This document shows, piece after piece, positions 2,124-43,271 of a DNA stretch of 64,000 nucleotides. The notes under the pieces are model-generated. The model saw only the letters and a list, made by a program, of their open reading frames with translations, was not told the DNA's origin and ran no database searches. The first letter of the stretch is position 1; the number at the start of each line of letters is the position of its first letter. The stretch is from an uncultured Bacilli bacterium (GTDB lineage: Bacteria > Bacillota_I > Bacilli_A > RFN20 > CAG-631): contig CANQVX010000002.1 of NCBI GenBank assembly GCA_947627355.1, positions 1 through 64,000 on the forward strand. Reading direction: 5' to 3'. Position numbers and translations under genes: made by a program.

Positions 2124-2160
2124 TCTTTTGTACTGAACAAGCCGTTTGGTTGTTTGTAAA

Positions 2161-2215
2161 ACGACACCTTGTCAGCGTGCGTCAGCACGCTCTCGTTAAT
2201 AAGACAAGGTGTCGT
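2161..2215. repeat. Nested hairpin
   Basis: ACGACACCTTGTC 2161-2173 / GACAAGGTGTCGT 2203-2215 enclosing AGCGTGC-gtca-GCACGCT. Confidence 0.85.
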
Positions 2216-30350: not shown

Positions 30351-30404
30351 TTTCTTTTTTCAAGATAATAGACAAAACAACTCAAAACAAGTATAATGTA
30401 GACA

Positions 30405-30484
30405 CCATAAAGAGAACGGCTAGAGACAAGCTCCAAACCGTCAGCAACCTTTTAAGTAAGGTGCTAAAGCTTGAACGATGGGAT
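30405..30484 (+). promoter_or_regulatory. SAM-I-like (S-box) riboswitch aptamer
   Basis: AGAGAACGGCTAGAGACAAGCTCCAAACCGTCAGCAACCTTTTAAGTAAGGTGCTAAAGCTTGAACGATGGGA retains CAGCAACC and AAGGTGCTAA core; promoter TAGACA-N17-TATAAT upstream. Confidence 0.65.
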
Positions 30485-30502
30485 ATATTATTATAAATAT
30501 TT

Positions 30503-30532
30503 ACTCCTATCGTGTCGATGGGAGTTTTTTTA
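30503..30532 (+). terminator. Riboswitch terminator with competing antiterminator
   Basis: ACTCCTATCGtgtCGATGGGAGTTTTTTT; CGATGGGA also at 30476-30483. Confidence 0.85.
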
Positions 30533-41667: not shown

Positions 41668-41821
41668 ATAATTTTAGGCGTAAAAAAACCGAGATAATCA
41701 ACCTCGATTTTTTTATAATTCCGAAAAAATAAGGTTCTATCGTAATAGACCCTATGCAAAAACGCCGAAGCATTTTTTTCTGCTAAGTTTAGATTATCAC
41801 AAGAAATTGCGCGTGTCAAAT
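41668..41821 (-). ncRNA. Candidate structured RNA unit, copy 1 (distal), downstream of abiF-like gene
   Basis: Minus strand: TTGACA (41819-41814) N17 TAATCT (41796-41791) with TGn extended -10; TCTAT-TACG-ATAGA hairpin; terminator CGAG...CTCGGTTTTTTT; near-identical to copy 2. Confidence 0.72.
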
Positions 41822-41878
41822 TATTTTTTTTAAATTTTTATTGAGTAACGTGATAAAATTAATAAAACAAAGAAAAAA

Positions 41879-42032
41879 ATAATTTTAGGCGTAAAAAAAC
41901 CGAGACGCGCGACCTCGATTTTTTAATAATTCTTAAAAACTAGAACTCTATCGTAATAGATTCCTCACAAAAACGCCGAAGCATTTTTTCCTCTAAAATT
42001 AGAATATCACAAGAAAGTGCTTGTGTCAATTT
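41879..42032 (-). ncRNA. Candidate structured RNA unit, copy 2 (proximal), promoter abutting abiF-like stop codon
   Basis: Minus strand: TTGACA (42029-42024) N17 TATTCT (42006-42001) with TGn; same hairpin and CGAGGTCGCGCGTCTCGGTTTTTTT terminator. Confidence 0.75.
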
Positions 42033-43017
42033 AACATTTAAAGTTGTTGGATATGATTTTATAAAAATAGTTATATACAGATTTTAATTGTTCATTATTC
42101 ACATAATAATTTTTGTGTAGAATAAACCTACCATAAAACAATTTGTTGATTTCTTCACACACATATTGTTTAATACCATCACTAGTTACGATTTCGTTAA
42201 ATAAATATAGAGTATATGTTATTTGTCTAATGCTTGAATTGCAAAGCTTATTATGTCTTATATCCTTGCTTATTCCACAATTTCTTAGATATTTAATTAC
42301 AGATCTATCCGGGATGCTATTATTATCTTTTACGAAAAGATTAGATAATATACAAACATTATGAGCAACGGCGTTTCGTAATTTTCTTGCTTCATTTAAT
42401 GCGAAAAAATATTTTTTTTCATTTAAAGCGTAGTAATCAGTAAAAAATTTAAAAAACTTAATTAATTCGCCAAAAGAAACAATTTTTAGAAATTCCCATA
42501 ATGGAAGGTTTTCTATTTTCTTATCCTCTTGCAAATTATATTTTAAAAATGTTGCTTTATAATATTCACTAGTCTTTTTTGACATAATACTGTTGTGTAT
42601 GAGTTTTGGATGTTGCGGATCATTATAATCTTCATCAAGAAAAAGATTTACGATGTTATAGCCATCCTCTCCAGGAATAGATTCAACAAGTTTTGATATT
42701 TTAAGTTTTAAATAATGTTCGATGCTGGTAGTCATATTAAAAAGCAAAAGCCTTAATCTATAATCAATAATTGCTAAATCAATTAGATAAGCGAAGTCCA
42801 AATCGATATATTTGCCTTTTAGTTCACCACATTGATAAACAGGAAAATTATTTTTATATGATGTCACGTTTTCATAACTATTATTATCTGACAAATATTT
42901 CATGGCATCGGCCACACTATAAAATTCAAACTTAATATTCTTTTCAATTAAATGTTGAATCATTTCGGGTATAGTTAACATTTTCTCTAATGTATTTACT
43001 GTTTGATTTGCGTTCAT
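42031..43017 (-). CDS. AbiF/AbiD (Abi_2) family protein with HEPN Rx4H motif
   Basis: RLRLLLFNMTTSIEHYLKLKI; EARKLRNAVAHN (R-NAVA-H at 42361-42378); RBS AAAGGAGGTGAAAAAATG supports start at 43017. Confidence 0.85.
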   Translation of the reverse strand: MNANQTVNTLEKMLTIPEMIQHLIEKNIKFEFYSVADAMKYLSDNNSYENVTSYKNNFPVYQCGELKGKYIDLDFAYLIDLAIIDYRLRLLLFNMTTSIEHYLKLKISKLVESIPGEDGYNIVNLFLDEDYNDPQHPKLIHNSIMSKKTSEYYKATFLKYNLQEDKKIENLPLWEFLKIVSFGELIKFFKFFTDYYALNEKKYFFALNEARKLRNAVAHNVCILSNLFVKDNNSIPDRSVIKYLRNCGISKDIRHNKLCNSSIRQITYTLYLFNEIVTSDGIKQYVCEEINKLFYGRFILHKNYYVNNEQLKSVYNYFYKIISNNFKC

Positions 43018-43271
43018 TTTTTCACCTCCTTTTTTAGTTAAATTATATAACATAATTAAGTCAAAAAACAAACAAAAAGATGTTTAAAATTTGTCGGTAA
43101 AAACGGGAAAAATTATGAAATTTTGCTAAAAAATTTATAAGAAAAAATTGACAAAAATTTGATACAAATTTGATATGTTTTTTTGCTTGTATTTAACATT
43201 TTTATTAAATATTTAATGTTAATTTAAAGTGTCTATGTTATACTTTTTAACTAGATAGGACGGATAATAAA

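Follow-up and report, generated by a model that had tools for sequence, protein, structure and literature searches.

A conserved two-hairpin RNA, present downstream of abiF as two promoter–RNA–terminator units, is a probable antitoxin in an uncultured Bacilli bacterium

On the chromosome of an uncultured Bacilli bacterium, an abiF gene is followed on the same strand by two small RNA units, and the locus probably constitutes an RNA-antitoxin/HEPN-toxin pair, in which the two downstream RNAs would be separately transcribed antitoxin copies that bind and inactivate AbiF. The locus lies on the minus strand of the 64,000-nt stretch of DNA that was analyzed (the window). Comparative analysis of homologous loci showed that, across this clade, the 3′ end of abiF adjoins a predicted two-hairpin RNA, conserved and covarying, which is found beside the gene's relatives in many gut bacteria. 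The association of AbiF with a cognate ncRNA is as such already published. The present system differs from that of C. difficile in its layout, since the RNA is downstream, predicted to be independently transcribed and multiplied as complete genes, and it is new in Rfam terms.

The abiF coding sequence (positions 42031–43017, minus strand; 328 aa plus the TAA stop codon at 42031–42033) is preceded by the ribosome-binding site AGGAGGTG. Its product matched the Pfam family Abi_2 (PF07751) at 79 bits, above the gathering cut-off of 25.6, and the PADLOC AbiD model at 59.5 bits. The HEPN Rx4H motif RNAVAH (42361–42378, minus strand; residues 214–219) is intact, and R214, N215 and H219 were invariant across 61 aligned homologs. 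When the AlphaFold model of the protein (pLDDT 91.6) was compared with the PDB using Foldseek, the top match was 8vz6_A, PbAbiF in complex with its ncRNA (probability 1.00, E 2.8e-3; TM 0.53/0.58, 15% identity). This was the sole confident match, the runner-up having a probability of 0.06, and the sequence profile by itself reached 8vz6 at an E value of only 0.69. The protein is therefore an AbiF-family member with an intact HEPN motif and a predicted PbAbiF-like fold, the Pfam match, motif invariance and fold all bearing out the initial annotation of an Abi_2/AbiF-like gene with an RNAVAH motif. By homology with characterized AbiF proteins, it would be an RNA-cutting toxin. The chromosomal neighbors of abiF encode a dehydrogenase, a GDSL lipase and a serine hydroxymethyltransferase-like protein, and no defense context was found among them.

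Two further abiF paralogs, 67% and 64% identical to the window AbiF, are present in the same genome. A short stretch, AAAATTTGTCG...AAACG, is common to the regions upstream of all three genes (window positions 43060–43180; loci L002 and L003) despite their different outer flanking genes; it is possibly a shared regulatory leader or a cassette boundary. An empty-site comparison with a genome of the same genus (G003) found no clear synteny of the flanking genes. Elsewhere in the window, a SAM-I/IV riboswitch was matched at 30400–30510 on the plus strand (43.5 bits).

Both RNA units downstream of abiF have the predicted architecture of two small hairpins (P1 and P2) followed by a third stem (P3) ending in a U-run. 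The promoter of unit 1 (42001–42029, minus strand) consists of TTGACA at 42029–42024, a 17-nt spacer and TATTCT ending at 42001, with a TGn extended −10, and its −35 box sits 1 nt beyond the abiF stop codon. That of unit 2 (41791–41819, minus strand), which was duplicated along with the RNA, consists of TTGACA at 41819–41814, a 17-nt spacer and TAATCT ending at 41791, again with TGn. The predicted transcripts, both on the minus strand, are ~102 nt for unit 1 (41893–41994, assuming a start 7 nt after the −10 box) and ~103 nt for unit 2 (41682–41784), and P3 with its U-run is a probable intrinsic terminator in each (41894–41924 and 41682–41714, respectively; minus strand). In an alignment, the P3 stem was kept in both window units and in both units of the paralogs. 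The promoter sequences, the −35 box abutting the stop codon and the short body with its own terminator had all been described in the initial annotation and were confirmed here. Two tandem units are indeed present, 210–211 bp apart, but calling them near-identical was too strong, because they are 81–82% identical over ~171 bp and 75% within the 63-nt core. By local statistics alone, neither the promoter nor the terminator matches exceed chance: a promoter scanner found 12 promoter-like sites in the window against 13.7 expected, and unit 1 was the only one of the two units to be flagged. They rise above chance through their conservation across other genomes, seen in the matches to an RNA model and in the promoter at the stop codon.

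To define the RNA family, we searched for homologs of the locus in one genome per species. A single-protein query returned no match, and an alignment query retrieved 80 homologous abiF loci, mostly from uncultured Bacilli and some from Clostridia. A covariance model, R1, was built from an alignment of 35 RNAs, none of them from the genome of the window. Unguided RNAalifold folding of this alignment predicted a pair of hairpins in which 7 of the 15 base pairs showed compensatory changes. In the tested structure, 91.8% of cells were paired, compared to 85.1% after shuffling, two-sided changes numbered 37 compared to 8, and covariation was 0.321 compared to 0.191; sliding the pairing partners abolished the covariation signal. 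An alternative P1 with a bulge (outer stem UGCAA/UUGCA around a conserved GGAAA) had 90% of cells paired, with mostly one-sided changes, and is missing from unit 1.

In the window, R1 matched unit 2 at 41725–41787 (46.5 bits, E 2.6e-9) and unit 1 at 41936–41998 (45.0 bits, E 6.4e-9), the next-best match scoring 21.0 bits. Because the model was trained on nothing from this genome, the cleanest test was a scan of all 1.57 Mb of it. The top four matches (46.5, 45.0, 32.4 and 27.7 bits) were the four units adjoining the three abiF genes, with one related RNA unit, co-oriented with the gene, downstream of each of the two other paralogs. The weak fifth match (23.4 bits) adjoins a sigma-factor-like gene rather than abiF and was taken as chance.

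The presence of three AbiF/RNA pairs with 64–67% protein identity raises the question of whether the two window units are specialized, one for the window AbiF and the other for one of the paralogs or for another state, or whether unit 1 is decaying. The divergence of the copies to 75% in the core and the weaker fold of unit 1 (z-score −0.95, compared to −4.19 for unit 2) would fit such a scenario, which we nevertheless consider rather unlikely: the two units are each other's closest relatives, have similar R1 scores and both keep the promoter, both hairpins and the terminator. Moreover, the P2 differences between them, compared by eye, leave the outer stem mostly paired and exchange an A·G mismatch for G·A, a pattern as expected from selection on both copies.

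We then examined whether the RNA and its promoter are conserved in position, as the initial annotation of a cognate RNA beside abiF would predict. An R1 unit lay within 450 nt downstream of abiF in 66 of the 72 loci with enough sequence; 34 of these 72 had supplied seeds for R1, and of the other 38, many of which are close relatives, 32 were positive. Among the six exceptions, L106 and L110 have visible but diverged units, and at L065 a transposase gene lies between abiF and the RNA unit. A promoter of the form TTGAC-N16–18-TANNNT was found within 60 nt of the abiF stop codon at 67 of the 72 loci, compared to 1.3% of control windows, and 62 of these 67 carried TGn. In most relatives, P2 ends in a U-run.

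Rfam scans, whether at gathering thresholds or at permissive ones, assigned the RNA to no family. In particular, the published abiF RNA motif (RF03085; gathering threshold 37), which the initial annotation had brought up, found no match in the window, in the rest of the genome or in the relatives scanned, while as a positive control it matched the RNA upstream of abiF in the C. difficile phage phiC2 at 37.6 bits. The RNA family is thus new to Rfam, but may already be included among the covariance models that Zilberzwige-Tal et al. (2025) have for AbiF RNAs (as known from PMC12804078). At plasmid and phage abiF genes, mostly other hairpin RNAs, as judged by eye, occupy the corresponding place, and two phage loci matched R1; a search of viral contigs for the exact core pattern gave no match.

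Duplication of the unit is not confined to the window. Two downstream RNA units were also found at L085, L028, L090, L106 and L110; three units lie dispersed at L082 and three in tandem at a contig end in L146, so that the largest tandem arrays seen comprise at least three units. An RNA unit also lies upstream of abiF at L085, L073 and L045. Units of one locus are 63–95% identical, and within most multi-unit loci they are each other's nearest relatives, while the units of L106 and L110 group together. This within-locus kinship suggests that duplication occurred repeatedly and independently, or that the units evolved in concert, and whole-unit tandem duplication thus apparently recurs independently in several other lineages.

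Several units are displaced from abiF or lack it. A 1.5-Mb genome of the same order (G035) has seven abiF genes, 30–55% identical to that of the window (L004 and L006–L011), and at least one three-unit RNA array (L146), on a short contig from which abiF is absent. At L147, where abiF is absent, an RNA unit scoring 79.8 bits (2124–2189, plus strand) lies between Fic-like and HsdR-like ORFs, so named from reading the ORFs rather than from a family search; the HsdR-like N-terminus recurs after abiF and its RNA at L055, L058 and L059. At L056 and L093, a 69-bit unit (1754–1818 in both) lies 1.2 kb upstream of abiF, where an unrelated gene for a membrane protein has its 3′ end. The transposase gene that separates abiF from its RNA unit at L065 (1481–2431, minus strand) and another amid the three units of L082 (1887–3212, minus strand) indicate that insertion can part units from abiF or scatter them. 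Since units without a neighboring abiF exist, the RNA may have a further role.

A related arrangement was found in S. aureus, where the sRNA Sau-5971/RsaL (RF02397, 117 bits; L128, 2121–2216, plus strand) starts 11 nt downstream of an abiF stop codon; the HEPN motif of this AbiF is RNKSAH. The arrangement resembles that of the window: the RNA is on the same strand as abiF, its promoter overlaps the abiF 3′ end, and two hairpins are followed by a terminator; the two RNAs differ in that Sau-5971 belongs to another Rfam family and is not matched by R1. Sau-5971 has been detected by Northern blotting as a highly expressed sRNA and described as processed from a 3′ UTR (PMC5826253, PMC3386247). No antitoxin role is reported in the literature that we read on it, and none of the papers found to name it is among the AbiF papers listed in our search (20 of 190), though a link to AbiF may be noted elsewhere. 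By analogy with the window locus, Sau-5971/RsaL may be an AbiF antitoxin RNA.

The 3′ UTR origin ascribed to Sau-5971, together with the P2 U-run of most relatives, which could terminate the abiF mRNA, might suggest that the element is a mere 3′ UTR or terminator acting in mRNA stability or termination, duplicated by chance and devoid of an antitoxin role. This is quite unlikely, given that a dedicated promoter is conserved at the abiF stop codon, that the entire promoter–RNA–terminator unit has been repeatedly duplicated and also occurs upstream of abiF, and that conservation and covariation extend to P1, which is no terminator.

An antitoxin function of the RNA units has precedents in characterized AbiF systems, and it is by homology with these that we infer it. 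In C. difficile, AbiF is toxic and is neutralized in trans by direct binding of RCd22, HEPN residues being required (PMC12373285). PbAbiF is inhibited by AbiFr, with one RNA per monomer (PMC12737573). The window locus shares with AbiF–RCd22 an Abi_2/AbiF HEPN protein with an RNxxxH motif and a small structured RNA adjoining the gene, the RNA motif being present in two copies. However, RCd22 is located upstream and is co-transcribed with abiF, with both motifs in one transcript, whereas in the window the RNA follows abiF, every copy comes with a predicted promoter and terminator of its own, and RF03085 finds no match. The likeness to PbAbiF/AbiFr (8vz6; Zilberzwige-Tal et al. 2025, as described in PMC12737573 and PMC12373285), which has an inhibitory cognate ncRNA, is drawn from the protein fold, the identity of the proteins being 15%. 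Type III toxin-antitoxin systems (ToxIN, CptIN, TenpIN) likewise combine an RNase toxin with a repeated small RNA, but their toxin has the ToxN fold rather than HEPN, and their antitoxin repeats are upstream and co-transcribed with the toxin. R1 found no unit upstream of the window abiF, where the RNA is downstream with its own promoters and the repeated unit is a whole gene including promoter and terminator.

Combined, the R1 matches across the genome, the covariation, the conserved position (66/72) and promoter (67/72), and the expression of Sau-5971 in S. aureus favor an RNA antitoxin, whereas the lack of a match to RF03085, the low identity to PbAbiF, the RNA units without abiF and the neighbors without defense context count against it. 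The proposal that an AbiF HEPN protein is paired here with cognate small RNAs finds strong support in the comparative evidence and in the fold similarity to ncRNA-bound PbAbiF. In the mechanism that we propose, AbiF would be a homodimeric HEPN RNase toxin, and two small RNAs, each transcribed from its own promoter, would bind it directly and hold it inactive. The two promoters would raise the RNA-to-toxin ratio, a dosage benefit, and if the RNAs were lost or diluted, for example when a phage takes over or the cell is stressed, RNA cleavage would be unleashed and growth arrested. It is very unlikely that the two RNAs are instead guides that direct an RNA-guided or RNA-triggered, Cas13-like AbiF RNase to phage transcripts or sense them, since, although AbiF is a proposed Cas13 ancestor (PMC12737573) and its RNA is found as repeated units, the core of that RNA shows strong sequence and structural conservation (63–95% identity within loci) without a variable guide-like segment, the protein has 328 residues and a single aligned HEPN motif where Cas13/type VI effectors are large proteins with two, CRISPR-like spacers are absent, and the published AbiF RNAs are antitoxins. 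Nothing in our analysis supports a guiding role, and neutralization is better supported, given how RCd22 acts in C. difficile and AbiFr on PbAbiF (PMC12373285, PMC12737573).

The locus supplies an RNA family missing from Rfam, with a ready covariance model and natural one-, two- and three-unit versions, and the three paralogous AbiF/RNA pairs in one genome offer material for studying specificity. It likewise hints at a function for Sau-5971/RsaL, an sRNA long known in S. aureus. Because AbiF is a proposed ancestor of Cas13, the arrangement and multiplication of its RNA bear on the passage from an RNA antitoxin to a crRNA array. A broader and more doubtful idea is that the antitoxin RNAs of AbiF are organized as small, independent genes in arrays able to expand, occurring as single, double, at least triple tandem, flanking or orphan units, and that these arrays tune antitoxin dosage and diversify, with orphans protecting against incoming AbiF toxins. 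If true, the growth of antitoxin units into arrays would be a natural model for the transition from an RNA antitoxin to a CRISPR-like array.
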